From an uncultured Bifidobacterium sp. (GTDB taxonomy: Bacteria; Actinomycetota; Actinomycetes; Actinomycetales; Bifidobacteriaceae): 61,918 nucleotides of DNA. The stretch covers positions 1-61,918 of the forward strand of contig NZ_CALYOY010000007.1 of the NCBI RefSeq assembly GCF_945269915.1. Reading direction: 5' to 3'. Position numbers and translations under genes: made by a program. The notes beneath the pieces were generated by a model. It saw only the letters and a program-made list of their open reading frames with translations, had not been told where the DNA came from and made no database searches. Of the stretch, positions 20,275-61,767 are shown piece after piece (position 1 is the first letter of the stretch; each line of letters opens with the position of its first letter).

Positions 20275-21645
20275 TCAATCTGAGCGTTCATTCGCTCGCG
20301 TCTGGAAATAAGAGGGCTCCGCGACGATTCGCCGCATCTTGCCATCCAAATCGTATCGTACCAAAAGGATGGCAATAAGGAGAACCATGACCAGAGGAAC
20401 CCATACGAAGGTTCCCACCATGGCCGAAAGGGCCCTTTCTGTCTGGTGGCTGGTTTCGGCCTTGTAACCGGAAGCGGACAGGACCCAGGCTATGGCCGCC
20501 GACGATACCCCCATGGCCACCTTCATGGAGAAGCTGGAGGAGCTGAAGACCATTCCGTCCGAGCGGACACCGTAACGCCACTGGCCATAGTCCACAACAT
20601 CGGCACTCATGGAATTCAACGATGCATTCAGAGGAACCATACCTGTCATCCTGAGTAGGATGGATAGAAAGAAAATGCCAAGGCTGGAGGAATCGATACG
20701 GATTAGCAGACTCCCCGCCACTACGAGAACCAGACCCGCCAGGGAAGTGGTACGCTTCCCGAACCGCGCAATGATGGGTCCTGACAGGGGCAGGCCGAGA
20801 ATCATCGGCAAGACCGTGGCAAACCCCAATGCCGAGGTAAGGCTCGGATTACCAAGGACATACTTGGCCAAATAGGCCGCCATTCCATTTGCTATGCCGT
20901 TGTAGACCCATAGGAGGAAATTGAGTCCGAGGGTGATCCACCAGTACCGGTTCTTCGACAGGGCGGCAAACTGGCTGCCTAGGGTAACCCTGTCCTCCCG
21001 GCCACCACCAAGGTCCTGTTCGCGTGTCATCCGGAAGGTATACCAGTACCCGAAGGGAATCATGAACGCTATGCACCCGAAGAAGACGCCCCAACCGGTC
21101 GCACCCCCGCCGAGTCGAGCAATGAGTGGCATGGCCAGCAGGTAGACGAGCATGGCTCCGATGTTGGCCGTGGTCATCCGGAAGATGTTGAGCCGGGTTT
21201 TTTCGTCGACATCACTGGTTATCAGTGAGGTAAGGGAAGCGTATGCCACGTTCACCGTCGAGTAAGCCAGATTCACCAGGATGAAGGATATCCAGGCGTA
21301 TCCGAGCCTGCCAGCGGACGTTCTGCACGGATCAAGGAAGAGCAGGAAAAAGCAGGGACCATAAAGGACACCCCCGGCCAGCATCCATGGCCGGGCCCTC
21401 CCCCACCTGGTCCTTGTTCGGTCAATCAACACGCCGACCACCACATCCCAGATCGCCGCCGCCAATCGCACCAGCAGGAGCATGAAGGCGACATTGGCAG
21501 GATTCAGATGAATCACATCCGTATAGAACATGGTCAGATAGGTAGCCATCGCGATGTTGCCGATGGATGTCCAGAAATCACCCATACCGAAGGCGAATTC
21601 CTCCGATAGGCCGACCCCTCCTCTACCGCTTCCCCGACACACCAT
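20275..21645 (-). CDS. GPH-family (glycoside-pentoside-hexuronide) MFS symporter
   Basis: The 456-residue, roughly 12-helix transporter begins near LSEEFAFGMGDFWTSIGNIAMATYLTMFYTD, the signature of GPH cation symporters (MelB, XynP and UidB relatives). The DRTRTRWGRARPWML loop follows between helices 2 and 3. GPH proteins import sugars and glycosides with H+ or Na+. The start lies one base after the stop of the glycoside hydrolase gene, so the pair is an operon. It probably imports the compound, or its cleavage product, that the hydrolase acts on. Base composition looks less GC-rich than the ribosomal genes. Confidence 0.9.
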   Translation of the reverse strand: MVCRGSGRGGVGLSEEFAFGMGDFWTSIGNIAMATYLTMFYTDVIHLNPANVAFMLLLVRLAAAIWDVVVGVLIDRTRTRWGRARPWMLAGGVLYGPCFFLLFLDPCRTSAGRLGYAWISFILVNLAYSTVNVAYASLTSLITSDVDEKTRLNIFRMTTANIGAMLVYLLAMPLIARLGGGATGWGVFFGCIAFMIPFGYWYTFRMTREQDLGGGREDRVTLGSQFAALSKNRYWWITLGLNFLLWVYNGIANGMAAYLAKYVLGNPSLTSALGFATVLPMILGLPLSGPIIARFGKRTTSLAGLVLVVAGSLLIRIDSSSLGIFFLSILLRMTGMVPLNASLNSMSADVVDYGQWRYGVRSDGMVFSSSSFSMKVAMGVSSAAIAWVLSASGYKAETSHQTERALSAMVGTFVWVPLVMVLLIAILLVRYDLDGKMRRIVAEPSYFQTRANERSD

Positions 21646-21646
21646 C

Positions 21647-23239
21647 CTAGGCGACTCTGCTGAGTCGGACTGCCATGTACTGGCGCTGTCCCAGATTGAC
21701 CCGGATCCGATCCCGACATTCTTCAGGCAGTGTCGTCACGGTCATGTTCCAGGTGTCAATCACATCAACCTTGTAGCGATGCCCCTCGGGAAGGGCGAAC
21801 TCACGGTAGAGCGGCTGATACCAGCCGAAATAGACCAGGCTGTAATCAACGCCGCTACGAATCACAGGAACATCCCAGTACTGGCCGGCCTTCTCCCAGG
21901 CTGCATCACTGACGGCATTCGGGGCCTTGGGTGAGGACAGGGGCCAGACGGCATCCTGGGGCGTTCCCGCATCCAGGGGAGTTGCATCCCGTGGCATCTG
22001 CTCAAAGATGTCACGCATGAAGGCGATACGGGCAGGTGACTCCCCATGCAGACGACCTCCATGCGCCCACCAGATCTGAGGGCCCTTGTCGATGAAGGTC
22101 TCACCATGTGTTACATACCCGCACCTCATGCAACCCTGCCAGAACCGGCGCACCATCTCCTGGGCGGAGAGATTTCCCCAGCCCCAGTAAATGTTGCCCT
22201 CGTATCCTGCTTCATCACAGATTACGGGCTTGTGAAAGCGCTGCCTCCAATCCTCGATGTCCTCGGTGGTCCTGGTCACGTCCGTGCGCTGGATGGAACA
22301 ATGGGTGCACCAAGGCTCGTTGTAATCGTATATCGTGAGGCAGTTGTGGATGGAGCGCAGATGGCCGAATGCATCGTCTGCCATAACGACCCTTGCATAG
22401 CTGCGCCAATCCTCGAGGGACTTGTAGGGCATGAGGTCATATTCATTGGCGAGTGACCACCAGACGTTCTTGTAGGCACCATATCTGCGGGCCATATAAC
22501 TCAGATAGAACCTGTCCTCGTCGGTGGTCATCCTGGAGAACCCCCACTCCGGCTTGTCATAGGGATGCAAAAGGATGACGTCCGCCTGAATGCCAAGCTG
22601 GTCGAGCTGGGTTATGCGCCTGTCGAGATTCTCGAAGAAGTCCTCGTTGAACCTGCTGTGGTCAAACCCCTGGGCCATGGAACCCTGATAAGCGAACATG
22701 GGTGGATCGGCCGTGTTGAAGTCATAAAACTTGGGAAAGACACACATACGCACCTTATTGAAAGGCGATGTGGCCAGGGTCTGCAGGGTCTGGTCCTGAA
22801 CGGCAGTGTCCTGGCTAATCCAGGCATAGCATGTGGTGCCGAAGGGGACGTAATCAGTGCCGTCCTCGTAAGCGAAGCGAAAGGGCAGCTCCCTGCCGTA
22901 TACCTGGGCCCGCTCCCCTGAAACCACGTCCTTGGCCGGGAGGACACGACCGTGGTTTTCGCCTCGGGCCGGTGCGGCCTCAAGAGTACCCTGACAGTCA
23001 TCCAGATTCGGATCATTGCTGTGGGTTTCGTAGGTCCACAAGCCGGTTGTCAATGGCATGAACCTGATGGAAAAATGCCCCTTGCCGCGATAAAATCCCT
23101 TGACGCTGATCAGCTCACCGGTTTCCCGCGAACGGAAATCCGCCCTAAGCTGCGTCTCGACGTACGGGTTTCCCCGCTCGCTCCCCTGAAGGTTGATTTC
23201 ATATAAGCCATATTGCTCTGTTGCCTCTGACTCTGTCAT
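21647..23239 (-). CDS. Apiosidase-like glycoside hydrolase (DUF5060/DUF4038/DUF5605 architecture)
   Basis: The 530-residue protein has no signal peptide, so it is predicted intracellular. The N-terminal beta-sandwich (about residues 10-95, with KGFYRGKGHFSIRFMPLTTGLWTYET) matches the DUF5060 type. A (beta/alpha)8 domain follows. WWSLANEYD holds the probable acid/base Glu266, and ICDEAGYEG the probable nucleophile Glu343, as in clan GH-A. A C-terminal sandwich (about 430-530) resembles DUF5605. Proteins of this type include apiosidases and related plant-glycan enzymes, so the exact substrate is not fixed. The ATG at 23239 has AGGAG ten bases upstream. It is the first gene of an operon with a GPH symporter, under a promoter with a TTACT-N4-AGTAA operator. 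Confidence 0.8.
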   Translation of the reverse strand: MTESEATEQYGLYEINLQGSERGNPYVETQLRADFRSRETGELISVKGFYRGKGHFSIRFMPLTTGLWTYETHSNDPNLDDCQGTLEAAPARGENHGRVLPAKDVVSGERAQVYGRELPFRFAYEDGTDYVPFGTTCYAWISQDTAVQDQTLQTLATSPFNKVRMCVFPKFYDFNTADPPMFAYQGSMAQGFDHSRFNEDFFENLDRRITQLDQLGIQADVILLHPYDKPEWGFSRMTTDEDRFYLSYMARRYGAYKNVWWSLANEYDLMPYKSLEDWRSYARVVMADDAFGHLRSIHNCLTIYDYNEPWCTHCSIQRTDVTRTTEDIEDWRQRFHKPVICDEAGYEGNIYWGWGNLSAQEMVRRFWQGCMRCGYVTHGETFIDKGPQIWWAHGGRLHGESPARIAFMRDIFEQMPRDATPLDAGTPQDAVWPLSSPKAPNAVSDAAWEKAGQYWDVPVIRSGVDYSLVYFGWYQPLYREFALPEGHRYKVDVIDTWNMTVTTLPEECRDRIRVNLGQRQYMAVRLSRVA

Positions 23240-23340
23240 GATTCTGCCTCTCCTGAACCGGCGCACACCAACGTGCGCCTTATATACGGTTGTGGTAACC
23301 GATAAGCCCTGGATACCGGAACTGATCTAGTTATTATTAG

Positions 23341-48846: not shown

Positions 48847-50463
48847 CTACTCGGTCGGGCCGTCCTTGAAGATGGCTATATCCTGCATGCCGTTACGCTC
48901 GTTGCAGGTCTCCTCCCCGTTGACAACGGCGAGGACCTTCCTGCGGAAGTCTTCGAAGACACGGTCACCCGGCTCATCCAGGAGACGGCCGGCGTTGAAG
49001 TCGATCCACCGGTGTTTCTTGGTGGCCAGGGGGGTATTGGTGGCCACCTTCAGAGTAGGGACAAAGGTTCCGAAGGGCGTCCCCCGCCCGGTTGTGAAGA
49101 GGACCACCTGGGCTCCGGCCGCGGCCATCCCGGTGCTGGAGACCAGGTCGTTGCCCGGCGTCTGGAGGAGGGAGAGACCAGGCCTGCGAATGTGGTCTCC
49201 ATAGTGGAGAACATCCTCCACCTCGCAACGACCGCCCTTGCGGATACACCCCAGGGACTTGTCTTCCAGGGTGGTGATTCCGCCCTTCTTGTTCCCCGGA
49301 GAAGGGTTGTCGGATATGACCTCGTCGTATTTGCGGAAGAATCCCTTGAAATCGTTGATCAGATCAATGATGTCATGGAAGACCTGCTCGTCGCGAGCCT
49401 GACTCATCAGGACCTGCTCCGCCCCGAACATCTCGGGTACCTCGGCCAGGACCACCGAACCACCCTGGGAGACCACCCATTCCGCAAACCGACCCACCAG
49501 GGGGTTGGCCGTGATGCCTGACATGCCATCGGACCCACCGCACTTGACACTGACATTGAGCTCGGAGAGGGGAACCTCTTCACGGTGGTCACCGGCCGCG
49601 GCCTCGTTGATCTGGTCCAGGAGGGCATCGGCCTCGTCCAGCTCGTCCTCCACCTCCTGGCAGATGATCCAACGGACACGGTCCTTGTCGTAATCACCCA
49701 GTGTTGCCAGCATGTCCTCCATCTGGTTGTTCTCACAACCCAGGCCGACCAGGAGGACCCCGCCAGCATTGGGATGGGTGGCGATGTCCTGGAGACAACG
49801 CCTGGTGTAGACAAGGTCGCCTCCCAACTGGGAGCACCCATAAGGATGACGGGCCACAACCACTGAGTCGAAGGACCCGTTGCCATGGTGGCGGGCCGAG
49901 AAGGACCGGGCCATGGCATTGCAGAGACTGTTGATGCAACCGACCGTGGGGACTATATAGAGGTCATTACGGATGCCGACCTTGCCCGTCGAACGCTTGT
50001 ACCCCCGGAAGGTTCCGGACGGACTGCCCGGCTTGACCGTGTCGGTGACCGGCCGGTACCGGTAATCCAGGTTGGCCCCCAGGTTGGTGGCCAGGTTGTG
50101 GGTGTGGACCCACTGCCCCTTATGGATGTCCTCCTTGGCATGGCCGATGGCATAGCCGTACTTGACGACGTCCTCCCCCCTGGGGATGTCCCGGAGGGCC
50201 ACTTTGTGTCCACGGGGGACCTTGTCGAGCACGACCACCTCGCCATGGCCCTCCACCTGAACCTTCTCGCCCGGTTCCAGGCTTCTGGCGGCCACGGCCA
50301 CCATATCCTTCGGATTCAGGAGGATCGTATCCCGCCCGGTCCGTTCCGGTATCTCCTTGACATAGTCATGTTTCAGGCCGGTGTCATCTCCCGTATCACA
50401 GGTGGGAACGAATCCCGTGGAGCCACCCTCTGGAACCATGCACTGTCGCGTTGTCTCACTCAT
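48847..50463 (-). CDS. uxaA: Altronate dehydratase
   Basis: UxaA dehydrates D-altronate to 2-keto-3-deoxygluconate in the galacturonate branch. The 538-residue product has an N-terminal SAF-like domain (about residues 45-115, with RDIPRGEDVVKYGYAIGHAKEDIHKGQWVHTHNL). A long catalytic region follows, with conserved cysteines in VPTVGCINSLC, RHPYGCSQLG, GLGCENNQ and SVKCGGSDGMSGITANP, which may hold iron. The family length is about 490-540. AAGG lies only two bases before the ATG, an unusually short spacing. A later ATG (codon 9) is possible. It is separated from uxaC by 700 bp, with a shared box 40 bp upstream of its start. Confidence 0.94.
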   Translation of the reverse strand: MSETTRQCMVPEGGSTGFVPTCDTGDDTGLKHDYVKEIPERTGRDTILLNPKDMVAVAARSLEPGEKVQVEGHGEVVVLDKVPRGHKVALRDIPRGEDVVKYGYAIGHAKEDIHKGQWVHTHNLATNLGANLDYRYRPVTDTVKPGSPSGTFRGYKRSTGKVGIRNDLYIVPTVGCINSLCNAMARSFSARHHGNGSFDSVVVARHPYGCSQLGGDLVYTRRCLQDIATHPNAGGVLLVGLGCENNQMEDMLATLGDYDKDRVRWIICQEVEDELDEADALLDQINEAAAGDHREEVPLSELNVSVKCGGSDGMSGITANPLVGRFAEWVVSQGGSVVLAEVPEMFGAEQVLMSQARDEQVFHDIIDLINDFKGFFRKYDEVISDNPSPGNKKGGITTLEDKSLGCIRKGGRCEVEDVLHYGDHIRRPGLSLLQTPGNDLVSSTGMAAAGAQVVLFTTGRGTPFGTFVPTLKVATNTPLATKKHRWIDFNAGRLLDEPGDRVFEDFRRKVLAVVNGEETCNERNGMQDIAIFKDGPTE

Positions 50464-51164
50464 ACCTTCAAGCTAATGGGCGGCTTCAGACACGAATCAC
50501 TTTGTTGCCAGCCTTTGCGAAGGTTGCGACCGCCGGTCCGGACCAGTTCTCCACGTGGCAACATCGTGGCTGTCATATCCGCGATTCCGACAAGTACACA
50601 TGCATCATCGCGCACACGGCCGGTTACGTCTCAGCATGAAGAAAGACACCGCTGCGTAAGCCGCATTGCTTATGTTCGGCCTAGATAGGAATTCAATGCG
50701 CAAGGGTACCGGCAGAGAACCGCAACCCGCAATGAATACCATCTTTCCATGCACACCGGAAAGAGGAACCGGACCAATCCAGGGCAGATGGAAACATTTC
50801 CTTGAGTGGATACCTCATAGTCGGGGAACGATTGGCGAGGAACCTAAACAGCAATATCAACCAGAGGTTGTTCCATGGAAATCAGGATCGTGCCGTCTTG
50901 CGCGATTGTCGCCGATCCTTTGAATACCAAGCAGGACAGGCGGGGAAATGAGCACTCGGATGTGCCGGATACCCTAACAGGATATTCATGAAGGACCCTG
51001 CCGAACTGGTGGACCAACGCCTGCTCACGGCCTTAGGGGACGGCAATCCGTCAGCCGCCGACGGTCGACAGACAACCAGCCCAATATTCCAGGACAGAAC
51101 GTGCCTGCTTATACGGATTATCAATTCATATAGGCAAACACGTTATTCACAACCTACTGATATA
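50464..51164. other. Long uxaA-uxaC gap without a recognised gene
   Basis: About 700 bp without a convincing gene. The reading frames present are short and unlike known proteins. The uxaA-proximal end holds the shared uronate box. A perfect 14-bp palindrome ACTGATATATCAGT (51156-51169) overlaps the uxaC stop. The middle part is lower in GC than the flanking genes and may hold a decayed gene. Confidence 0.5.
50503..50518 (-). promoter_or_regulatory. Shared uronate box upstream of uxaA
   Basis: Read in the gene direction it is GCAAAGGCTGGCAACA. GCAA repeats 10 bp apart. It ends 40 bp before the uxaA ATG. Three similar boxes precede uxaC, uxuB and kdgK. Confidence 0.55.
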
Positions 51165-52571
51165 TCAGTCCTCGAAGAGGGCCAGGGCGTTCTCATAGGA
51201 GACCGCACGGACCAGAGGAGCCAGATACTCCTTGTCATCGGGGATGGTACCCTGTGCCGCCCAGTCGCCCAGGAGACCGCAGAGCACCCTGCGGAAGAGC
51301 TCATGCCTGGGGAAGGAGAGGAAGCTGCGGGAGTCCGTGGTCATCCCCACCGCGTTGCCCAGGAGGGATGTCTCGGCCACAACCTCAAGCTGGCGGCGCA
51401 TCCCGGTGACCGTATCGTTGAACCACCAGGCGTTGCCCAGCTGGAGCTGGCCGCGATTATCGCCTCCGAAGCAGCCCAGGTCAGTGGCTATGGCCATGTA
51501 ATCATTGGGGTTGAGGGAGTAGACGATGGTCTTGGGCAGGGTGCCCGAGCTCTGTGCCTGGTCCAGGAGGGCCACCAGCGGGGCTGCCACCAGGCCATCG
51601 GCAATGGCATCGTAGCCCGTGTCGGCCCCCAGCTCCCGGAAGGCGGTCGAATTGTTGTTGCGGCTGGCATGAAGGTGGAGCTGCATGGTCCAACCCTTGT
51701 CCTTGTAAATCCTCATCAGCTCCAGAAGAAGGGCCGCTCGATACTGGGACTGCTCGTGGTCGTCGAGAACCTGGCCCGCCCTGGCCTTGCCGAAGATGGC
51801 GTCCAGTTCCCCGGTCGTGGCCGGTGCGAACTCCACCACATCGACGGCGTGGTCGGAAAGCCTGGAACCGTGCCGATGGAAGTAGTCCACACGTTCCCTC
51901 AGCGCATCGACCAGGTCGCCGAAACCGTTGATTGACCTGCCACAGACCGACTCCATGACACCGATCCACTCCCCATAGTCGTCGGCAGTCGGATTCAGGG
52001 CCACATCCGGACGGAAGGCGGGAACCATCCTGAAGGACTCCCCCTCCTTGGCAAAGAGCTCATGGTATTCCAGACTGTCCTCGGGAGAATCGGTGGTGCA
52101 GACTACCTTGGCCTTCATCCGGCGTAGGAGGGCCCTGCGCGAAAACTCCGGGGTGGCCAGCTGCTCGTTGGTCTGCTCGAAGATGGACTTGGCGGACCTG
52201 CCGGTCAGGGGCTCGGTAATGCCGAAGTAACGACGGAGCTCCATATGGGTCCAGAGGTAGACGGGGCTGCCCACGGCCTCTTCCATGGTCTGTGCGTAGG
52301 CCAGGAACTTGTCCCATGGGTCACCGTCACCGGTTATCAGCCGTTCAGGCACCCCGTTGGCCCTCTCCAACCTCCACTTGTAGTGATCGCCGTAGTTATG
52401 CCCATCAGTAAGCCAGGCATCGACAATATTGCCGAAGTTGGGATCCTCGTAGATCTCCTTGGCGTGGAGGTGGCAATGATAATCCACCAGGGGCAGATCC
52501 TCAGCCACATCATGGAAGAGTTCCCGGGAAAGCTGCGTCCCGAGCAGATAGTCATCATCCAGGAAAGCCAC
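51165..52571 (-). CDS. uxaC: Glucuronate/galacturonate isomerase
   Basis: UxaC isomerises D-glucuronate to D-fructuronate and D-galacturonate to D-tagaturonate, the entry step of both branches. The 468-residue amidohydrolase-fold protein has the metal-binding DYHCHLHAKEI near residue 31. Also present are GDHYKWRLERANG, TDSPEDSLEYHE and HLHASRNNNS, and the C-terminal TDSRSFLSFPRHELFRRVLC is a family hallmark. The start is GTG at 52571 with AAGGAG six bases upstream. An upstream ATG would add 26 unlike residues. It lies downstream of the two LacI genes in the same direction but has its own box. Confidence 0.95.
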   Translation of the reverse strand: MAFLDDDYLLGTQLSRELFHDVAEDLPLVDYHCHLHAKEIYEDPNFGNIVDAWLTDGHNYGDHYKWRLERANGVPERLITGDGDPWDKFLAYAQTMEEAVGSPVYLWTHMELRRYFGITEPLTGRSAKSIFEQTNEQLATPEFSRRALLRRMKAKVVCTTDSPEDSLEYHELFAKEGESFRMVPAFRPDVALNPTADDYGEWIGVMESVCGRSINGFGDLVDALRERVDYFHRHGSRLSDHAVDVVEFAPATTGELDAIFGKARAGQVLDDHEQSQYRAALLLELMRIYKDKGWTMQLHLHASRNNNSTAFRELGADTGYDAIADGLVAAPLVALLDQAQSSGTLPKTIVYSLNPNDYMAIATDLGCFGGDNRGQLQLGNAWWFNDTVTGMRRQLEVVAETSLLGNAVGMTTDSRSFLSFPRHELFRRVLCGLLGDWAAQGTIPDDKEYLAPLVRAVSYENALALFED

Positions 52572-52763
52572 TGCAAACTCCTTAGTCGAAAATGGCGAGT
52601 CCGGGATTCCTGCCCCCATGAATTCAGGAGCCGCCTGTGCACAGGGCAAGGAGGCAGTCGGGACCGCATGGAATCGGAACTCGTATATACCATGGGTCAG
52701 CCTATCCGCGCCGGGAAAGGTATGGGGATGGTGTTGCCATGATTTGCCGGGACACCGTCCTCC
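52572..52763 (-). promoter_or_regulatory. uxaC upstream region with shared uronate box
   Basis: The box GCAAATCATGGCAACA lies at 52732-52747 (minus strand). It is followed about 45 bp later by a -10-like TATATA near 52684-52689. No good -35 is seen, which would fit a factor-dependent promoter. Confidence 0.5.
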
Positions 52764-53777
52764 TCAGGATGACCGGGTTCCGGTCTTCCCTACGCTCTCC
52801 CGTACGATCAGGTAGGAGGGGACCATGATGCTCTGCCCCAGGTCGGTCCGACCATTCAGCCGTTCCAAGAGGAGGGTGGCCGCGGTCTTGCCCAGCTTTG
52901 GCGGTGAATTACCCACACTCGAAAGAGGCGGTTCACTGACCTGGGCCATGGTGTCATTGTCGAACCCGATGATCACATAATCCTCCGGGCAGCGGCGACC
53001 ATGACGACGCATGGCCGCCATGAAACCCAGAGCCATGAGGTCGTTGTGCGCGATGACCGCCCCGGTGGGGTCCTTCAGGTACCGCCCGACCATGGCATAC
53101 CCTCCGACGAAGGTGGGAGAACCGGGCCAGATGCGCCGAACCGTCACCCCACGCTTACGGAACTCCTCGGAGGTATGGTTCCACCTGACCCCGACGGACC
53201 ATGACGAGGAGGGACCATCCAGGTAGGTCACCCGCTCGAATCCCATGGACACCAGAAGATCAACCGCCTGTCGGATTCCTATCGTGATATTGATTGCCAC
53301 GCTGGGTACCCCCCGCACGGTCCGGTTGACCACGACGATGGGCCTGGTCTGGGCACACTTGCGGATCATGGCCTCAGGCATCCGGGAGGATGTCAGAATC
53401 ACCCCGTCAACATAGGCCGCAATCTTGTTGAAAGCCGCCCTCTCCCTGGTTGCGCTCTCTTCGGATTCGGCAACGATAAGAGCGAAACCGGCCTCGTTGC
53501 ACTCGTGCTGTACTGAACGGATGATGTCGGAGAAGAACTGGTTGGCGATATCGGGAACGATTATGGCCACCATTCCGCGCAGGGTCCGGGAGGGGACCGT
53601 GTCGACCAGCTCCGTATAGTACCCCAGGGCATCAGCCGCTACGAATATCCGCCTGGTTGTGGCAGCGCTGACCCGGTCCGGCCGGGCGAAAGCCCTGGAT
53701 ACCGTCGAGGGGGAGACACCAGCCTTCTCGGCTACTTCCCTAATGGTTACGCGATGAGGCCGGGAGTGGGAACTCAT
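52764..53777 (-). CDS. LacI-family transcriptional regulator 1
   Basis: The 337-residue product has the LacI helix-turn-helix VTIREVAEKAGVSPSTVSRAFARPDRVS at about residues 9-36. A periplasmic-binding-like effector domain follows, with IIVPDIANQFFSDIIRSV, DGVILTSSRM, YLDGPSSSWS, VIAHNDLMALG and IGFDNDTMAQVSEPPLSSV. The segment after the recognition helix reads ALGYYTELVDTVPSRTLRG, without the usual hinge-helix pattern (PNxxAR). It closely resembles the next gene upstream, and their ends overlap by four bases (ATGA). Because both lie among the uronate genes they probably sense a pathway sugar acid. Confidence 0.92.
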   Translation of the reverse strand: MSSHSRPHRVTIREVAEKAGVSPSTVSRAFARPDRVSAATTRRIFVAADALGYYTELVDTVPSRTLRGMVAIIVPDIANQFFSDIIRSVQHECNEAGFALIVAESEESATRERAAFNKIAAYVDGVILTSSRMPEAMIRKCAQTRPIVVVNRTVRGVPSVAINITIGIRQAVDLLVSMGFERVTYLDGPSSSWSVGVRWNHTSEEFRKRGVTVRRIWPGSPTFVGGYAMVGRYLKDPTGAVIAHNDLMALGFMAAMRRHGRRCPEDYVIIGFDNDTMAQVSEPPLSSVGNSPPKLGKTAATLLLERLNGRTDLGQSIMVPSYLIVRESVGKTGTRSS

Positions 53778-54844
53778 GATAGGGATTCACTCTCCGCCAC
53801 GTTCCGCCCTGAGGGCTTATCCAGTCTGGCACCGGTGCTCTGCCTGATGATCAAGTGAGCCGGGACGATCGGAGTGGCTGCAGTCGAAGTCGTACCGGCC
53901 AAACGCTGCATGAGAAGGTCGGCCGCCCCCCTGCCCAAGGCCGACAGGGACATATGAATGGTGGTCAAGGGTGGACTACTGACCATGGACATGGTGTCGT
54001 TGTCGAATCCGATAACCGAAACGTCTCGCGGGCACTCACAACCCAGCCGCCTCAGGGCCACAATCAGTCCAATGGCCATCAGGTCGTTATGGGCGATGAC
54101 CGCCCCGGTGGGGTCATCCAGATACTTCTCGGCGTATGAGTAGCCGCCATAGAAGGTAGGGGCGCAGGGTAGCGAACGCTTGACGGTTATCCCCTTGGCA
54201 TCGCACTCGTTGAAGATGTGCCGCCACCGGATGCCCCCCGACCAGGAGGCCGCCGGCCCGTCCAGGTATGTCAAACTCCGGTAGCCCAGGGTGTGGAGGT
54301 GATCAACCGCCTGGCGTGCCCCCTTGGAAACGTCGATACAGATGCTGGAGACACCCCGAACGTCGCGGTTGACGCTGATCAGAGGGCGCAATTGGGCACA
54401 CTTGCGAATCATGGCATCAGGCATCCTGGGGGAAACCAGGATGATACCCGAAACAACAGGGGCCACTGTATCGACGATGCGGCGCTCCTTGGTGATGGAC
54501 TCCCTGGTCTCCAGAATCAGGGTCTCGAATCGAAAGCGCTCGCATTGGTCCTGTATGTTGCGGATGACCCCGGTGAAGAACTGGTTGCCCAGATCGGGCA
54601 CGATGACAGCCACAAGGCCCCTCCCCTGGGTGCCCGGCCGGCTGTCGACCATGTCGCTGTGGTAGCCCAGGGCATCTGCAACCTGCTGGACCTTCCGAGA
54701 CGTCGAGATGCTGACGCGGTCCGGACGTGAGAAGGTGCGTGAAACCGTGGAGGGGGAAACACCGGCCTGACGGGCCACATCATAAATGGTGACGCGGTGG
54801 TTGCCGTTGGAGGAATCACCCTCCGAGTCCGCTTCGGTCTTCAT
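53774..54844 (-). CDS. LacI-family transcriptional regulator 2
   Basis: The 356-residue product has an acidic N-terminal arm of about 15 residues. The helix-turn-helix VTIYDVARQAGVSPSTVSRTFSRPDRVS follows at about 18-45. The effector domain is very like that of regulator 1 (LDGPAASWSGGIRWRHIF, DDPTGAVIAHNDLMAIG, IGFDNDTMSMVSSPPLTTIH). The shared SPSTVSR recognition helix suggests the same or similar operators. The hinge region ALGYHSDMVDSRPGTQGRG is also atypical. It is the first gene of a lacI2-lacI1 unit and is divergent from uxuB-uxuA across a 244-bp region. Confidence 0.92.
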   Translation of the reverse strand: MKTEADSEGDSSNGNHRVTIYDVARQAGVSPSTVSRTFSRPDRVSISTSRKVQQVADALGYHSDMVDSRPGTQGRGLVAVIVPDLGNQFFTGVIRNIQDQCERFRFETLILETRESITKERRIVDTVAPVVSGIILVSPRMPDAMIRKCAQLRPLISVNRDVRGVSSICIDVSKGARQAVDHLHTLGYRSLTYLDGPAASWSGGIRWRHIFNECDAKGITVKRSLPCAPTFYGGYSYAEKYLDDPTGAVIAHNDLMAIGLIVALRRLGCECPRDVSVIGFDNDTMSMVSSPPLTTIHMSLSALGRGAADLLMQRLAGTTSTAATPIVPAHLIIRQSTGARLDKPSGRNVAESESLS

Positions 54845-55088
54845 CTATCCGTATCAGCCTTCCCCTCACCGGCCCCCGGCGTCCGAAATGGACGCCTGCG
54901 TCGCAAGTACTACTTATGGCCAAGTATAGGTGAACCCAGCCTTCCCATGGCAACCTCATGAGTCATGAGAAACAAACGGCAACTCAGGAGGCCGATGTGG
55001 ACCGGCTTGATAGGTTCGATATACAGAGAGGACAGGACGGAGACGCCCCCGCCTCCGCATACGGTTCTTTTTGCAAAGGAAGACGCTG
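54845..55088. promoter_or_regulatory. Divergent regulatory region between lacI2 and uxuB
   Basis: For lacI2 (minus), -35 TTGCCA (54948-54953) and -10 TATACT (54923-54928) have a 19-bp spacer, and the -35 lies in a TGGCAAC motif. For uxuB (plus), TGGACC (54998-55003), a 16-bp spacer and TATACA (55020-55025) form a promoter. A uronate-like box GAAACAAACGGCAACT lies at 54969-54984. An inverted repeat GGCGTCC-N5-GGACGCC is near 54880. Confidence 0.5.
54969..54984 (+). promoter_or_regulatory. Weaker copy of the uronate box upstream of uxuB
   Basis: GAAACAAACGGCAACT shares GGCAAC and the A-rich left half with the other three boxes, in the same orientation relative to the gene. It ends 104 bp before the ATG. 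Confidence 0.4.
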
Positions 55089-56741
55089 ATGCTACACCTG
55101 AGTGACAATATCAATACCGAAAACAAGGTCTGGCAGGAGACAGGTGTGGCCCTGCCATCGTTCGACATCGATGCGATGCGCCAGGCCACCAACCGTTCGC
55201 CCGCCTGGGTCCACTTCGGGGCCGGCAACCTCTTCAGGGCCGTTCACGCCCCCATCGCCCAGAAACTCCTGGATCTGGGATCCACCGACAGGGGCATCCT
55301 GGTGGCCGAGTCCTTCGACCCGGCCATCATCGACCAGGCCTACACCCCCTTTGACGACCGTTTCCTCCAGGTCATCCTGAAGGCTGACGGATCCATGGAA
55401 ACCTCGCTGATCGCCTCGGTGGCCGGCACCTACCCCCTGGGGGAGGATCCGAAACCCCTGCAGGACCTGAAACGGGTCTTCCGCGATCCCGGACTGCAGA
55501 TGATCACCACCACCATCACAGAAAAGGGATACGCCCTGGTCGACGCCAAGGGTGAGCCCCTGCCCTGGATCGCCCCGGAATTCGAGGGAGGACCCTCCCA
55601 GGCCAAGAGCGCCATCGGCGTCATCACGGCCCTTCTCCTGGAGCGATTCCAGGCGGGCTCCTTCCCTCTGGCCCTGGTCAGCACCGACAACTTCTCCCGA
55701 AACGGGGAACGGTTCGGACAAGCCGTCAGACAGATGGCTGACGAGTGGATCAAGAGGGACCTGGCCGGGCAGGACTTCGGCGACTACCTCAGGGACGGGA
55801 AGAAAATCACCTTCCCCCTGACCATGATCGACAGAATCACCCCCAACCCCGACAGGGAGGTTGGCCGACGGCTCGAGGCCCTGGGCATCGCCGACACCGC
55901 ACCCTTCCGCACCAAGGGCGGAACCGCCATGGCCTCATACACCAATACCGAGGAGACCTGGTACTGGGTGGTCGAGGACGACTTCCCCGCAGGCCGTCCG
56001 CCACTGGAGAAGACCGGGGTCTACATGACCGACAAGGACACCGTCAACGCCGCCGACCAGATGAAGGTCACCACCTGTCTGAACCCGCTCCACACGGCCT
56101 TGGCGGTCTTCGGGATGCTCCTGGGGTATCCGACCATGTCCAGGACCATCGCCGACCCGGACCTGAAGGCCCTGGTCACCCGCCTTGGTTATGTGGAGGG
56201 GTTGCCCGTGGTCGAGGACCCGGGCATCTTCTCCCCCAAGGAATTCCTCCGTCAGGTCATCGAAATCAGGGTCCCCAACCCCGGACTGCCCGACACCCCG
56301 GCGCGTATCTCCACCGACACCTCCCAGAAGATTCCTGTCAGGTACGGCAATACCATCAGCAAGTACATCCGAACCGAGGGGCTGGACGCGGCCGACCTGG
56401 AGGCCATTCCCCTGATCATCGCCGCCTGGCTGCGGCTCCTGATCGGTTCGGATGGACAGGGAACCGACGACGCCGGGCGGTCCATCAAACTCAGCCCCGA
56501 CCCCCGCATGGAGGAACTCCAGAAGATCCTGGGCGGCATTCCTCTGGACGGCTCCGTCAAGGAGGAGACCCTGGCCGCGACCATCAAACCCATCCTGGCC
56601 GACGCCACGATCTTCGGGACCGACCTGAACACCACACCGCTGGCGGGCAAGGTCGCGACCGACATGGCCTCCATGTGCCTGGGCCAGGGAACTGTGGCGG
56701 ACACTCTTCACAAGGCCACGGCCGCCTGGCAGAACCAATAG
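55089..56741 (+). CDS. uxuB: D-fructuronate reductase (mannonate oxidoreductase), mannitol dehydrogenase family
   Basis: UxuB reduces D-fructuronate to D-mannonate with NADH. The 550-residue polyol-specific long-chain dehydrogenase has the nucleotide-binding WVHFGAGNLFRAVHAP near its N-terminus, then LVSTDNFSRNGERF and MIDRITPNPD. The catalytic region is QMKVTTCLNPLHTALAVFG, with Lys, Asn and His, in the spacing seen in Firmicutes-type enzymes rather than the E. coli form. The ATG at 55089 has AAAGGA eight bases upstream, so an earlier in-frame ATG is rejected. uxuA follows after 83 bp. Mannitol or another polyol could be the substrate, but the neighbours support fructuronate. Confidence 0.88.
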   Translation: MLHLSDNINTENKVWQETGVALPSFDIDAMRQATNRSPAWVHFGAGNLFRAVHAPIAQKLLDLGSTDRGILVAESFDPAIIDQAYTPFDDRFLQVILKADGSMETSLIASVAGTYPLGEDPKPLQDLKRVFRDPGLQMITTTITEKGYALVDAKGEPLPWIAPEFEGGPSQAKSAIGVITALLLERFQAGSFPLALVSTDNFSRNGERFGQAVRQMADEWIKRDLAGQDFGDYLRDGKKITFPLTMIDRITPNPDREVGRRLEALGIADTAPFRTKGGTAMASYTNTEETWYWVVEDDFPAGRPPLEKTGVYMTDKDTVNAADQMKVTTCLNPLHTALAVFGMLLGYPTMSRTIADPDLKALVTRLGYVEGLPVVEDPGIFSPKEFLRQVIEIRVPNPGLPDTPARISTDTSQKIPVRYGNTISKYIRTEGLDAADLEAIPLIIAAWLRLLIGSDGQGTDDAGRSIKLSPDPRMEELQKILGGIPLDGSVKEETLAATIKPILADATIFGTDLNTTPLAGKVATDMASMCLGQGTVADTLHKATAAWQNQ

Positions 56742-56824
56742 TCATTCCGGCGTCCTGCCCCGGACCGGGGGACGGAAAACACAAGGGCCGTGTCCGATGG
56801 ATTCGACCGTAAGGAGAGAACATC

Positions 56825-57952
56825 ATGCATATGGGATTCCGCTGGTACGGTGAAGGCAACGACACCATCAGCCTGGATGACATCCGCCAGATTCCCGGGG
56901 TGGAGACCATCGTCTGGTCCCTCCACCACAAGCAGGCCGGTGAGGTATGGCAACCCGACGAAATCGAAAAGGCCATGGCCACGATAACCGGGCTTTCGGC
57001 CAAGGACCGGGCTGCGGGCATCACCAAGACCTTCAATGCCGATGTGGTCGAATCAGTCAACGTCCACGAATCAATCAAGACGGGGTCGACGGTCCTGGGA
57101 ATGAGCCGGGACCAGGCCATAGAGGCCTACATCGAGACCGTGGCGAACCTGGGGAAGGCCGGGGTCAAGGTCGTCACCTACAACTTCATGCCGGTCTTCG
57201 ACTGGCTACGGACAGAGATGTTCCATCCCTGCCCCGACGGGTCGACCGCCCTCTACTACAACCAGCACCAGGTGGACCAACTCAGCCCCCAGGGCATCAT
57301 CGACGAGACCCTGAAGGGGGCAGGCGCCCTGACCGTGCCGGGTTGGGAGCCCGAACGACTGGCCCACCTCCCCGAGCTGATGGAGGCCTATCAGGGGATG
57401 GACCACGAGAAGATGTACGCCAACTACAAGTACTTCCTGGATGCCGTGATCCCCACCTGCGAGCGCTACGACGTCAAGCTTGCCGTCCATCCGGACGATC
57501 CCGCCTTCGACCTGTTCGGATGGCCGCGTGTGGTCTCCAGCAAGGAGGGGATCCAGCGGGTGCTGGACCTGAATCCGAGCCCCCGCAACGGCCTCTGCCT
57601 CTGCCTGGGCTCTTTCTCCTCCAGGAGGGGGAACGACGCGGTGGACGCGGTCAAGACCTTTATGGACAGGATTCACTTCAGCCACGTGCGCAACATCCGC
57701 TTCACCGACCAGGACGGGTCCTTCTTCGAGGTGGGGCATCGGGCCAGCGAGGGCGACGTGGACACCGTAGGCATCATGAAGGCATATGCCGAAGCCGATT
57801 ATCAGGGCTATATCCGCCCCGACCACGGGCGGCATCTATGGAGTGAGAACACCGAGGCCGGCCGTCCGCGCCCTGGTTACGGCCTGTACGACCGTGCCAT
57901 GGGCATCCAATATCTGTTGGGAGCATGGGACGCATTCCGGTATAACCGCTGA
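56825..57952 (+). CDS. uxuA: Mannonate dehydratase
   Basis: UxuA dehydrates D-mannonate to 2-keto-3-deoxygluconate. The 375-residue TIM-barrel protein begins MHMGFRWYGEGNDTISLDDIRQIPGVETIVWSLH. Metal-site and active-site motifs are KLAVHPDDPAFDLFGWPRVV, LCLCLGSFSSR, RIHFSHVRNI and YIRPDHGRHLW, as in the family. AAGGAG is nine bases before the ATG. It is co-transcribed with uxuB and followed by a terminator. The length fits the usual 350-400 residues. Confidence 0.95.
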   Translation: MHMGFRWYGEGNDTISLDDIRQIPGVETIVWSLHHKQAGEVWQPDEIEKAMATITGLSAKDRAAGITKTFNADVVESVNVHESIKTGSTVLGMSRDQAIEAYIETVANLGKAGVKVVTYNFMPVFDWLRTEMFHPCPDGSTALYYNQHQVDQLSPQGIIDETLKGAGALTVPGWEPERLAHLPELMEAYQGMDHEKMYANYKYFLDAVIPTCERYDVKLAVHPDDPAFDLFGWPRVVSSKEGIQRVLDLNPSPRNGLCLCLGSFSSRRGNDAVDAVKTFMDRIHFSHVRNIRFTDQDGSFFEVGHRASEGDVDTVGIMKAYAEADYQGYIRPDHGRHLWSENTEAGRPRPGYGLYDRAMGIQYLLGAWDAFRYNR

Positions 57953-58307
57953 GGCAGCCCGGTAGCAACACCACCAGGGGTCCACTCGTCCCGTCCGACG
58001 GGGGACCCTGTCCTTTGACTATGGAAGAGACCACGCCGGGCCAGGTCTGGTCTCTGGGCGATCTCAGGAAAGGCACCGGATTCCAGACTGGAACCGGCCT
58101 CGGGAAGAAACCGGTGACTGGACCCCATAATAGGGAAGTGCCCGATGAAAGGTTCGGGTCAATCGCGAAACCCGATCTGACATCAGGCACCTGTTCAGTG
58201 TTCTCCATCAGGGCTGATACCCCGATGAAAGCTTCATATGACCGCCTGAGACGGCGGACAGGTTGTGGCCGTTCGGCCCTCCACGGGAAGCCCAGCCTTC
58301 CGATCAA
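57953..58307. other. uxuA-uxaB convergent gap
   Basis: This 355-bp stretch holds a terminator at its left end and no convincing gene. Several short inverted repeats occur (for example TCGGGT-N10-ACCCGA near 58155-58180). Frames crossing it are short and unlike known proteins. Confidence 0.5.
57975..58010 (+). terminator. Candidate terminator of uxuB-uxuA
   Basis: An outer stem CAGGGGTCC/GGACCCTG with one bulge and an inner stem CCCGT/ACGGG are followed by TCCTTT, 23 bp after the uxuA stop. Confidence 0.5.
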
Positions 58308-59753
58308 TCAGGCCAAACGGTCGATCAGGGGCTGAACGCCCTCATCGGCAATCCGGTTCAGGTCCGACCGAACGGCATCGACCAGTCCCTCGATCCGTGT
58401 CAGGTCATGGCCCCAAAGGGAGGTGGCGGAGAGGACCCTGCGGGCATAGTCATCCCGGTCAGCCGCACGACGGAAGGTGTCGATGACCTCCGGATCATCC
58501 TGGATCCGCACCGCATCACCTGTCCTGCCTCCATAAATCCACAGGAGGCAGGACAGGGCCAGGACGATACGCTTCGGGAGACCACGCCCCTGCTCCGCAT
58601 TGGCATTGATCAGGGGGAGGAGACGGGCGACGAACTTGGAGACCGAGTTGAGTCCGATGGAATCAAGAGAGTGCCGGATGAAGGGATTGTCGAACCGCTC
58701 CCGTACGGCCGCCGCGAAGTTCTCCAACTCCTCCCTGGGCAGACTCTGGACGGGGATGATCTCCTCCTCCATTTCACGGGTGATGAAGGAACGCATGGTC
58801 TTATCGGCCATGACCTCTCCGACGGTCCGGAATCCGGCCAGGCGGGCCACCTGGGCCATGGTCGTGTGGGGTCCGTTGAGCAGGTATACCTTGCGCTCCC
58901 TGTAGGGCTGAACGGCATCGCAGGTCACCAGGTCGATGCCGGCCTTCCGGGCGGGAATCAGCTCCTCAACCTTGCGTTGGGCGGCCTGGTCACCGGCCAC
59001 CACCCAGAGAAGGAAGGGCTCGGCCTTGACCATGTTCCGGTCCTCATAGCCCAGCTTCCCCCATAGCTCCTCCGCATCGTCGCGCGGGTAACCGGGGACA
59101 ATCCTGTCCACCAAGGTGCAGACGAAGGTATTCTCCCGGTCAAGCCAGTCGATGAAGTCCTGTCCCCATCCGAACCGGGTGGCGACCTCGATCAGGGCCC
59201 GATGCAGGGCCAGACCGTTTTCGGCGATCAGTTCGCAGGGCACAATCAGGAAGCCCGGCAGTGACTTGTCAAACCTGCGCTTGAGGAGGTGGGCCAACTT
59301 GGCCGGATAGCCGACGGGGGGCTGGGTTGCGACCGTATCCGCATCATCGACCGCAATGCCGGCCTCGGTGGTGTTGGAGATGATGATCTGCGTCTCCGGG
59401 TCATCAGCCAGGGCCAGATAACCCTCCCAATCCCGGTAAGGGTTGACGGTCCTGCCGATGGAGTCCACCAACTCATGACTGCGGACGGGCCGGCCATCCT
59501 TGAGCCCCTCCAGGATTACGGTATAAAGCCGATCCTGGTCCTCCAGGGCCTGGACCCTACCGTATTCAAGGGGTTGCACCACTGCGACGTTCCCCCCGAA
59601 CAGGCCCTTATCGTTCAGCTGCTGGACTATCCAGTCCACAAAGGCCCTGAGGAAGTTCCCCTCGCCGAACTGAATGACCCTGATGGGCCGTCGGGCCGCC
59701 TTCGAATCGGTTAGCCCCAGGCGGATGGCCTCCGCTTCTTGCAATCTCTGCAC
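58308..59753 (-). CDS. uxaB: Tagaturonate reductase (altronate oxidoreductase)
   Basis: UxaB reduces D-tagaturonate to D-altronate with NADH. The 481-residue mannitol-dehydrogenase-superfamily protein has IRVIQFGEGNFLRAFVDWIVQQLN, almost as in E. coli UxaB, then IISNTTEAGIA and LIVPCELIAENG. The catalytic region is RKVYLLNGPHTTMA, with Lys-x4-Asn-x2-His. The start is GTG at 59753 with GAGAGGAG six bases upstream. Another GTG ten codons earlier has poor spacing. It is the last gene of the kdgK-eda-uxaB unit, 93 bp after eda. UxaB is distinct from UxuB in sequence, so both branches are present. Confidence 0.92.
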   Translation of the reverse strand: MQRLQEAEAIRLGLTDSKAARRPIRVIQFGEGNFLRAFVDWIVQQLNDKGLFGGNVAVVQPLEYGRVQALEDQDRLYTVILEGLKDGRPVRSHELVDSIGRTVNPYRDWEGYLALADDPETQIIISNTTEAGIAVDDADTVATQPPVGYPAKLAHLLKRRFDKSLPGFLIVPCELIAENGLALHRALIEVATRFGWGQDFIDWLDRENTFVCTLVDRIVPGYPRDDAEELWGKLGYEDRNMVKAEPFLLWVVAGDQAAQRKVEELIPARKAGIDLVTCDAVQPYRERKVYLLNGPHTTMAQVARLAGFRTVGEVMADKTMRSFITREMEEEIIPVQSLPREELENFAAAVRERFDNPFIRHSLDSIGLNSVSKFVARLLPLINANAEQGRGLPKRIVLALSCLLWIYGGRTGDAVRIQDDPEVIDTFRRAADRDDYARRVLSATSLWGHDLTRIEGLVDAVRSDLNRIADEGVQPLIDRLA

Positions 59754-59846
59754 AATCGCTCCTCTCCGCTCTCCTGTCTCCACCTCTCCCGGAAGGCCTG
59801 CCAGGCCGGTTTTCCCTATAGCCGAAGACGGGTCCGGACCAGCCGA

Positions 59847-60512
59847 TCAGCCTTGTACCAGCTTCCTGGCCTGCCCGCAAGCATCGGTGACGGCCTTCCA
59901 GTCGCCTTGGCGCTGGGCCGCGGACGGCACCGGGAAACTTCCACCCACAGCGAAGACGTTGGGAAGGTCGATGTACTCGCGGACGTTCTTCAGTCCCACC
60001 CCCCCGGTGGGCAGGAAGCTCATCTCGGCAAAGGGGCCGGACAGGGCCTTGAGGGTCTTGACCCCGCCATAGGCCTCGGCAGGGAAGAACTTGGTGAAGC
60101 GCAGACCGCGGTCGTAGGCCTTCTCGATGTCGCTCGGGGTTGCCGTTCCCGGCAGGACCGGAATCCGGGAGTCGATGCACCAGTCGACCACGGCATCACT
60201 GAAAGCCGGGGAGACTATTCCCCTGCAACCCGCCTGGATGGCCTGGCGGGCCTGATCCACCGTATGCACGGTCCCAGCCACCAGTGTCACCTCGGGCACC
60301 TGTTCGTGAATGGCCTCCATCCCATCCAAGGCGGCCGAGGACCGGAAGGTCACCTCGGCGATCGGTACCCCGCCTGCAGCCAAGGCCCTGGCCAGCGGGA
60401 CCGCTTCTTCGGCGGAATGCAGGGTGACCAGGGGAACCACCTTGATCTTACGGATCAGGTCGATCAGTCCGGTCTCATCCTCCAGAACACCCGACTTGTC
60501 AAACTCGCTCAT
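59847..60512 (-). CDS. eda: KDPG/KHG aldolase
   Basis: Eda cleaves 2-keto-3-deoxy-6-phosphogluconate to pyruvate and glyceraldehyde-3-phosphate. The 221-residue TIM-barrel protein has the catalytic Glu in PIAEVTFRS, the Schiff-base lysine in RFTKFFPAEAYGGVKTLKAL and FLPTGGVGLKNVREYI. The family length is about 210. The ATG at 60512 has AAGGAAG seven bases upstream, and an earlier in-frame ATG is rejected. It lies between kdgK and uxaB in one unit. The enzyme is not part of the classical bifid shunt. Confidence 0.95.
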   Translation of the reverse strand: MSEFDKSGVLEDETGLIDLIRKIKVVPLVTLHSAEEAVPLARALAAGGVPIAEVTFRSSAALDGMEAIHEQVPEVTLVAGTVHTVDQARQAIQAGCRGIVSPAFSDAVVDWCIDSRIPVLPGTATPSDIEKAYDRGLRFTKFFPAEAYGGVKTLKALSGPFAEMSFLPTGGVGLKNVREYIDLPNVFAVGGSFPVPSAAQRQGDWKAVTDACGQARKLVQG

Positions 60513-60587
60513 ACTTGCTTCCTTCTCTTGTGGAATCCGTCGTTCATCTTCAAGCAACACGCCCGGTCGGGGCATCCCCGCACCAGT

Positions 60588-61592
60588 TCAGACGACCTGC
60601 CGTACAGCTGCACGCTGGTGACTGGCCATGAAGTCCTCCAGCTCGGCCTTGGTGGGCAGGCCCTCGTTATCGGAGACCACCTGGGTCTGCATGGCCCCGA
60701 TGGCACACCCACGTTCCAGAGCCTCCGACATGGGTCGTCCCTCCAGGAGGGCGGACAGGACCCCGGCCGCGAAACCATCTCCGGCACCGACCGTATCCAC
60801 GACCGCATCAACCTTGAAACCAGGAACGTAAACACACTCGTGGCCGTCCGTTGCATAGGCCCCGTCGGGGCCATCCTTGACGACCGCGTAATGGGCGCCG
60901 TTGTCGATGAAAGCCTGACCGATGTCGCGCACCTTTTCCAGGCCGAACAGGTGCTTGCCCTCGGAGATGCCCGGCAGGACAAGGTCGGCCTTGGAGCTCA
61001 GGGCCAGAAGGGTCTGCTTCATCTGCCCATCGCTCTTCCAGAGGGCGGGGCGCTCGTTGGGATCGAAGGAGACAAAGACATGGTTGGCCCGGGACTGTTC
61101 CATGAGGGTCTTGCTGGCTTCCAAGGTACTGGCTGAAAGGGGCGGGAGGATGCCGGTCATATGCGTCAGGGATATGCCCGTGTAGTCGATGCTCTTAATC
61201 TCGGCGGGACCGATGGCCGAGGCTGCCGAATCTTTACGGAAGTAATAGGTCTTGGGATCGCCCTGCTCGACCTTGGTCTTCATCATGAAGCCTGTGGAGC
61301 GGGTGGTATCCACCCCGACCAGAGAGGTATCCAGACCGTTCTGCCGCATAAAGTAACGTATCCGATCGCCAATCGGATCCTGTCCGACGCGGGTCATATA
61401 GACCGGACACTGGCCCAGGCGTTTCAGACCGATGGCCACGTTAAGCTCAGCACCGGCCACCGATGCACTGAAGGATCCGACCTCACTGCAAGGCCCCTCC
61501 TCACCGGCGGCGAAAAGCCCCATGCCCTCACCTACCAGAAGAACCTTGCCGGGGTGGACGCCATTGACCGATATGTCGTGTGAGACCGCCAT
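60588..61592 (-). CDS. kdgK: 2-keto-3-deoxygluconate kinase (PfkB family)
   Basis: KdgK phosphorylates 2-keto-3-deoxygluconate to KDPG. The 334-residue ribokinase-fold protein starts MAVSHDISVNGVHPGKVLLVGEGMGLFA. It shows the PfkB substrate region FSASVAGAELNVAIGLKRLG, GLDTSLVGVDTTRSTGFMM and the catalytic DTVGAGDGFAAGVLSALLEG, where the Asp is the base. The ATG at 61592 has GGAAGGAA upstream. Other PfkB sugar kinases are possible by sequence alone, but position directly before eda supports KdgK. Confidence 0.9.
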   Translation of the reverse strand: MAVSHDISVNGVHPGKVLLVGEGMGLFAAGEEGPCSEVGSFSASVAGAELNVAIGLKRLGQCPVYMTRVGQDPIGDRIRYFMRQNGLDTSLVGVDTTRSTGFMMKTKVEQGDPKTYYFRKDSAASAIGPAEIKSIDYTGISLTHMTGILPPLSASTLEASKTLMEQSRANHVFVSFDPNERPALWKSDGQMKQTLLALSSKADLVLPGISEGKHLFGLEKVRDIGQAFIDNGAHYAVVKDGPDGAYATDGHECVYVPGFKVDAVVDTVGAGDGFAAGVLSALLEGRPMSEALERGCAIGAMQTQVVSDNEGLPTKAELEDFMASHQRAAVRQVV

Positions 61593-61721: not shown

Positions 61722-61737
61722 TGTTGCCAGCTGTTGC
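61722..61737 (-). promoter_or_regulatory. Shared uronate box upstream of kdgK
   Basis: In the gene direction it is GCAACAGCTGGCAACA, 129 bp before the ATG. It directly follows the hairpin at 61736-61767, and a small 7-bp hairpin (TGTGCCT/AGGCACA) lies just after it. Confidence 0.55.
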
Positions 61738-61767
61738 TTGTTCCCGACAACGGCATCGGGAACAAGC
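61736..61767 (-). terminator. Hairpin downstream of the right-edge gene
   Basis: A perfect 12-bp stem (GCTTGTTCCCGA with its complement) and an 8-nt loop lie about 90 bp after the stop of the partial right-edge gene. There is no T-run. Confidence 0.5.

Follow-up and report, generated by a model that had tools for sequence, protein, structure and literature searches.

A gene island for a probable two-arm hexuronate pathway, with a common upstream element, in a Bifidobacterium of the B. asteroides group

The gene island

The window analysed here is one entire contig (C7, 61,918 bases) of a 1.97 Mb, 71-contig Bifidobacterium genome, and its positions 48847-61592 hold a compact island in which seven enzymes predicted to degrade hexuronates (UxaA, UxaC, UxuB, UxuA, UxaB, Eda and KdgK) are encoded together with two LacI-family regulators, LacI1 and LacI2 (Table 1). 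All nine genes are intact open reading frames (ORFs) with family matches, as an earlier sequence-only reading of this cluster had proposed, and its gene assignments are backed by profile matches and alignments. The closest named UxaC records belong to the B. asteroides group (sp. 7101, B. indicum, choladohabitans, mellis, polysaccharolyticum and asteroides); together with the UxaC tree they place the genome in this group of Bifidobacterium, in agreement with the host that had been assumed, and to judge from these named relatives the strain would live in bees. The survey sample comprised 189 Bifidobacteriaceae genomes, 27 of them in the window's genus.

The Pfam scores lie far above the cut-offs (UxaC 585 bits, UxuA 423, GD_AH/UxaA 315, 2-keto-3-deoxy-6-phosphogluconate (KDPG) aldolase 205, PfkB 176). 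The curated NCBIfam cut-offs are passed for glucuronate isomerase, mannonate dehydratase, tagaturonate reductase and Eda (TIGR01182), the last being narrowly below the cut-off of a further model, PRK05718 (232.5 of 241). In the alignment of Eda with 1vhc, the lysine of KFFPAE and the E of EVTFR are conserved, which we take to be the catalytic residues. The only UxaC match of the genome is the one within the island. As to gene starts, the UxaC ORF opens at a TTG (52649) and its real start may be more internal; for UxuB, ATG 55089 is the most likely start within an ORF open from 55071. The KdgK ORF could be extended upstream, yet GGAAGGAATGTT precedes the ATG at 61592, a position that matches the cluster end given by the earlier reading. 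The contig stops past kdgK, where murB comes next in relatives.

Table 1. Positions in the window of the island genes and of the upstream elements
Feature	Positions	Strand	Predicted product or role	Basis or remark
UxaA	48847..50463	-	Altronate dehydratase (SAF + GD_AH_second + GD_AH_C)	Pfam; nearest solved relative 6u7l, galactarate dehydratase
UxaC	51165..52649	-	Uronate isomerase	Pfam, NCBIfam, tree; 3iac glucuronate isomerase, E 2.4e-130
LacI1	52764..53777	-	LacI-family regulator, tracks UxaA; proposed for the galacturonate arm	NCBIfam, Pfam, co-occurrence
LacI2	53774..54844	-	LacI-family regulator, tracks UxuBA; proposed for the glucuronate arm	NCBIfam, Pfam, co-occurrence
UxuB	55089..56741	+	UxuB-like fructuronate reductase, long-chain mannitol dehydrogenase family	Pfam, alignment with solved family members
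UxuA	56825..57952	+	Mannonate dehydratase	Pfam, NCBIfam; 1tz9
UxaB	58308..59783	-	Tagaturonate reductase	NCBIfam PRK03643, 524.6 bits (cut-off 359); alignment with solved relative
Eda	59847..60575	-	KDPG/KHG aldolase	Pfam, NCBIfam; 1vhc, 1eua
KdgK	60588..61592	-	PfkB-family 2-keto-3-deoxygluconate kinase	Pfam; 4du5 PfkB, 1v19 KDG kinase
Element of uxaA, CGCAAAGGCTGGCAAC	50504..50519	-		28 bases, then TAGCTT
Element of uxaC, GGCAAATCATGGCAAC	52733..52748	-		28 bases from TAGGCT
Element of uxuBA, AGAAACAAACGGCAAC	54968..54983	+		27 bases from TAGGTT
Element of kdgK-eda-uxaB, AGCAACAGCTGGCAAC	61723..61738	-		27 bases from TAGCTT

Two modules and a common upstream element

The two regulators follow different parts of the island. 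Among the 12 genus genomes with UxaC, presence of LacI1 coincides with presence of UxaA in all 12, and LacI2 is likewise found alongside uxuBA (whole or split) in 12/12. This tracking suggests one galacturonate module and one glucuronate module. Moreover, two other family members (loci L029 and L039) show the order kdgK-eda-uxaB-uxaA-lacI1-uxaC, and uxuBA is absent from the 21 kb fetched around these galacturonate genes. The simplest reading is that of a galacturonate operon (kdgK-eda-uxaB ... lacI1-uxaC-uxaA) with a divergent glucuronate module, lacI2 and uxuB-uxuA, set in its middle, and we infer that lacI2-uxuBA was the part inserted.

A 16-base element, roughly GMAAM-N4-GGCAAC, lies ahead of all four transcription units. 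It is made of two GCAAC-like halves ten bases apart, and 27-28 bases separate it from a -10-like hexamer of the form TAG[CG][CT]T. In the case of uxaA, the hexamer ends just 6 bases ahead of the ATG, a distance from which the transcript may be leaderless. The combined pattern of element and hexamer occurs four times in the window, each time ahead of a unit of the cluster, whereas 100 Markov-simulated windows contain it 0.04 times on average and at most once; this chance test covers the window alone. When each element was left out in turn and scored with a matrix built from the others, it ranked among 123,806 positions 4th (kdgK), 6th (uxaC), 4th (uxaA) and 7th (uxuB), with 0, 2, 0 and 3 unrelated positions, respectively, scoring above it. 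In the 32 relatives' loci that were scanned, 29/29 matches precede cluster units or a remnant; this count is not independent, as the element was first spotted by eye in the same upstream output, and the leave-one-out ranking is the fairer test.

The family-wide scan was made with the matrix, since a pattern in the uxuB register misses even the kdgK, uxaA and uxaC elements of the bee strains. Of 89 regions upstream of pathway genes outside these strains, 11 score at or above the 99th percentile set by random pieces, against an expectation of about one; after merging of duplicate fetches, they amount to about 7 distinct sites in 6 Bifidobacteriaceae loci, including Galliscardovia, B. canis, B. 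biavatii and B. vespertilionis. Given the common predicted element, the four units probably form one regulon. In addition, the fixed position of the element upstream of the would-be -35 region suggests that it acts through activation more than through simple repression, which would be unusual for LacI-family proteins.

The predicted pathway and its substrates

Taken together, the island very probably encodes a functional canonical isomerase (Ashwell) pathway with two arms feeding KDPG aldolase: UxaC, a galacturonate arm, a glucuronate arm, a 2-keto-3-deoxygluconate (KDG) kinase and the aldolase are all found in its sequence. In the proposed scheme, UxaC would convert galacturonate into tagaturonate and glucuronate into fructuronate, which would be reduced by UxaB to altronate and by UxuB to mannonate, respectively. 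UxaA, acting on altronate, and UxuA, acting on mannonate, would then dehydrate both to KDG. Following phosphorylation by KdgK, Eda would cleave KDPG into pyruvate and glyceraldehyde-3-phosphate, thus entering metabolism below phosphoketolase. A phosphoketolase (Xfp) is also encoded in this genome (624.5 bits), and the suggestion of the earlier reading that the KDPG aldolase route bypasses it is backed by the sequence. Its remark on redox balance needs amending: the one NADH that is indeed consumed in the reductase step is recovered through glyceraldehyde-3-phosphate dehydrogenase. In other words, the conversion of a hexuronate into two pyruvate is redox-neutral, and by its stoichiometry the pathway should move end products towards acetate and formate. 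Bifidobacteria would thereby gain a redox-neutral route from the acids of pectin and hemicellulose to pyruvate that avoids phosphoketolase.

Several observations weigh against this reading. Three enzymes fall below their NCBIfam cut-offs: UxaA, whose sole match there is galactarate dehydratase (278.6 of 730.85), KdgK (155.7 of 400 for the equivalog model) and UxuB, which scores 119.2 for D-arabinitol dehydrogenase and 101.9 for fructuronate reductase, of about 600. Consequently, the names of these three rest on Pfam family, alignment and neighbourhood. No uronate transporter lies in the island, the candidate found elsewhere in the window being an MFS_2 symporter (20275-21645) that shares only 27% identity with the symporter found next to uxaC in B. 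primatium. With regard to co-regulation, 78 of the 89 non-bee upstream regions stay below the threshold, and the element has the form of a direct repeat preceding a -10-like hexamer and does not resemble an evident LacI palindrome; no palindrome common to the four units was seen by eye, no dedicated palindrome search having been run. The profile scores of UxaA and UxuB, the latter slightly favouring the arabinitol enzyme, are also what would be expected if the main substrates of the enzymes were different sugar acids, such as galactarate, or a sugar alcohol, the uronate names being transferred labels. As UxaC, UxuA and UxaB pass curated models, and as all seven steps are present with the co-occurrence expected for a uronate pathway, such a specificity appears very unlikely, and degradation of hexuronates remains the preferred interpretation.

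The neighbourhood of the symporter deserves a separate mention. On the minus strand at 20275-23266, this MFS_2 (GPH-type) sugar symporter adjoins an apiosidase-like/DUF5605/DUF5060 glycosidase; the guanine-plus-cytosine content is lower here (about 0.56-0.58), and the two might possibly form an uptake pair for pectin side chains or uronides.

With respect to the source of the uronates, GH28 (polygalacturonase) points tentatively to pectin. It is found in 5/27 genus genomes (the window's G000, G132, G136, G146 and, weakly, G128) and is commoner together with uxaA, occurring in 4/6 genomes with that gene vs 1/21 without it (p 0.004, shared ancestry ignored). In G132, the island itself carries between uxaC and uxaA a 1549-residue pectinesterase and GH28 protein, parts of an ATP-binding cassette (ABC) transporter and GH43; a GH28 match has the same location in G136, and locus L045 has ABC-transporter parts and GH43 there. 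The GH28 gene of the window's genome lies on a different contig, with no sugar-transport genes beside it in the annotated stretch.

One chromosomal site in many states

In bee strains the island occupies one site, between murB and a branched-chain amino-acid-permease-like gene. The unbroken complete form, with kdgK, eda and both arms, is present in 5/27 genus genomes, namely G132, G135, G136, G147 and the window's own (G000), the contig of which ends past kdgK, short of where murB would be expected. Named relatives with a complete island are B. polysaccharolyticum W8117 and B. asteroides VRA_9sq_n. A further genome, G146, is complete in content, but its kdgK-eda pair is elsewhere and its uxuA is split across two frames. 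Two genomes (G139 and G140) are glucuronate-only, without uxaA, uxaB and lacI1; four carry a shortened island, namely G128 (strain 7101, locus L022), G133 (ESL0199), G137 (B. choladohabitans) and G144 (B. mellis); and fragments are left in G134 (the end of uxaA) and G127 (part of uxuA). The site is empty in G143, G129, G150, G145 and G138, where some 150 bases separate murB and the permease. No UxaC match was obtained in the remaining 8 genus genomes; in three of these the island genes are absent from the permease region, murB being unmatched (G126) or separated from the permease by about 3.4 kb (G151) and 1.2 kb (G131).

This series would be best described as an optional trait of honeybee bifidobacteria, lost stepwise at a fixed site, with the order of events deduced from the states of present-day genomes. 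The same series raises the question of whether the window's island is itself a decaying relic, complete on paper and out of use, since relatives are found at several stages of loss, with empty sites, fragments of uxaA and uxuA, and frame splits in uxuB of G133 and uxuA of G146, although these two splits may alternatively be sequencing errors. In the window's strain, nevertheless, the nine genes are open, the ratio of nonsynonymous to synonymous substitution rates (dN/dS) against the complete strains is 0.03-0.14 across all nine, and the four upstream elements are all retained; decay of its island is accordingly judged very improbable, and a functional pathway is favoured. The strains, complete, glucuronate-only, shortened or empty at one site, constitute a natural experiment on the worth of the pathway without its last steps, and would also serve to test whether bacteria of the bee gut divide the work on pectin between them.

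The shortened form without kdgK and eda

The four shortened genomes carry one common deletion scar by which kdgK and eda were removed: the kdgK promoter, its ribosome site and about its first ten codons are fused directly to the leader of uxaB, the junction showing a short GCGG match. These genomes have an estimated completeness of 99-100%; an Eda-family gene was not found anywhere in the four, nor was a KdgK orthologue elsewhere in them, the best other kinase match reaching 50 bits (G133). Nonetheless, uxaC, uxuB, uxuA, uxaB and lacI2 are open with low dN/dS, the exception being uxuB of G133, split across two frames.

Specifically, by codon bootstrap the dN/dS of UxaC is 0.107 (0.073-0.145) in the shortened vs 0.087 in four complete strains, and that of LacI2 0.142 (0.084-0.217) vs 0.089. 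(Two rows were left out: LacI1 of the shortened strains, owing to cross-match to LacI2, and the APC permease, owing to terminal stops from over-extension.) The shortened-strain alleles group in clades of their own for UxaC (support 0.925) and LacI2 (0.991), and since these clades show low internal dN/dS, selection on both proteins seems to have continued past the deletion. The alleles of UxuA, UxuB and UxaB form no such clades and interleave with those of complete strains, so that recombination with the latter is an equally good cause of their intactness.

A possibility, which we regard as rather doubtful, is that the shortened strains use a pathway with an end point other than KDPG. Uronates would serve as electron acceptors for the regeneration of NAD+ at UxuB and UxaB, and altronate, mannonate or KDG would be released, so that neighbours could take it up; or else a DapA-type protein (PF00701) would split unphosphorylated KDG. 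Counting against it are the frame split in G133 uxuB, the possible recombination of uxuA, uxuB and uxaB, and the DapA-type proteins themselves: each shortened genome has two or more full-size matches, and so do 3/8 genomes with strong Eda (G135, G136, G147), as well as empty-site strains such as G129, G143 and G145, a distribution taken as following no clear pattern. HpcH (PF03328) was rejected as a substitute aldolase, the matches in the four genomes being of merely 19 bits. The window's genome has a strong HpcH-type match, which adjoins CitF and is therefore read as citrate lyase, the genes of both chains lying at 5529-7936 of L096 (contig C42).

Distribution in the family and origin

Across the 189 family genomes, the UxaC family is found in 59, of which 39 score 338 bits or more and represent the canonical type; UxaA is found in 30, UxuA in 35 and the Eda family in 48, some of the last being weak. 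The co-occurrence check that the earlier reading had proposed, run here on UxaC, UxaA, UxuA and Eda, finds all four together in 22/189 genomes, 16 of which are outside the window's genus, and in 6/27 within it; UxaA orthologues likewise number 6/27, the window's genome counted. The rarity that had been claimed is thus correct as far as a minority trait is meant and overstated otherwise, as the set is not peculiar to this strain. An Eda-family gene is present in 29/30 genomes with uxaA vs 19/159 others, and KdgK matches over 380 bits within the genus are confined to the 8 strong-Eda genomes and G127.

In the tree, the window's UxaC groups within Bifidobacteriaceae as sister to B. indicum (97/88). 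The eight bee rows form a starred clade with an unresolved sister group, and the outgroup includes several long branches. A horizontal origin beyond the family was rejected on the basis of this grouping and because no plasmid UxaC reaches 60% identity: 257 plasmid records match, each under that value, the first listed at 51%. Plasmids of Melissococcus plutonius, a bee bacterium, carry a UxaC about 51% identical to that of the window.

Two further observations concern UxaC in the family. In four genomes of genus g5 (G022, G044, G055 and G125), a divergent UxaC-family gene (about 240-265 bits vs about 620) occurs in addition to the first; uxuA and an Eda-family gene lie no more than about 8 kb from it, and it possibly encodes a glucuronate-specific isomerase. 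In Galliscardovia (L041) and B. primatium (L028), the order murB-permease-dapC-uxaC-dinB shows the same neighbourhood with uxaC across the permease, the other pathway genes being unmatched within the fetched loci.

Comparison with known systems

The pathway itself is canonical, in a host group where it is a minority trait. The uxaCBA/uxuAB/kdgK/eda genes of Escherichia coli encode the same seven reactions with homologous families. The present system differs in its layout as one 13 kb island, in its two LacI-family regulators, in the lack of an adjoining ExuT and in its phosphoketolase-type host.

In 2013, the honeybee Bifidobacterium strain A11, from the same host group as the window's strain, was reported to have Entner-Doudoroff enzymes and strain 7101 to be without them (PMC3878406). 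The latter finding matches the absence of kdgK and eda from strain 7101 (G128/L022) described above. The first part of that report names neither uronates nor a gene island, and we infer that the A11 enzymes are those of this island. In the Bifidobacteriaceae of termite flagellates, a KDPG hexuronate route has been described as acquired by small-genome endosymbionts, with ExuT (PMC11707648); pathway and family are the same, whereas the window's UxaC groups with other Bifidobacterium. Both reports count against the rarity claimed in the earlier reading.

As regards regulation, Bacteroides employs separate LacI-family regulators, UxaR and UxuR, for galacturonate and glucuronate (PMC4052901), a two-regulator scheme like that proposed here, though in another phylum and with the assignment here made by co-occurrence. 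Concerning the bee gut, glucuronate and galacturonate modules were found to be more prominent in Gilliamella (PMC9751035), and pectin methylesterase has been reported from two B. asteroides-related clusters (PMC10092428). Pectin-degradation islands have been reported in marmoset Bifidobacterium (PMC8406136) and the use of plant glycans by bifidobacteria has been reviewed (PMC7889515), neither text containing the word uronate, and uronate terms are absent from a Bifidobacterium regulon paper (PMC4746261). A published description of this island in bee bifidobacteria was not found in a mostly open literature, supplements excluded. To these known systems, the present analysis adds a loss series at one site, a common deletion of kdgK-eda, a shared upstream element, the tracking of UxaA by LacI1 and the association with GH28.

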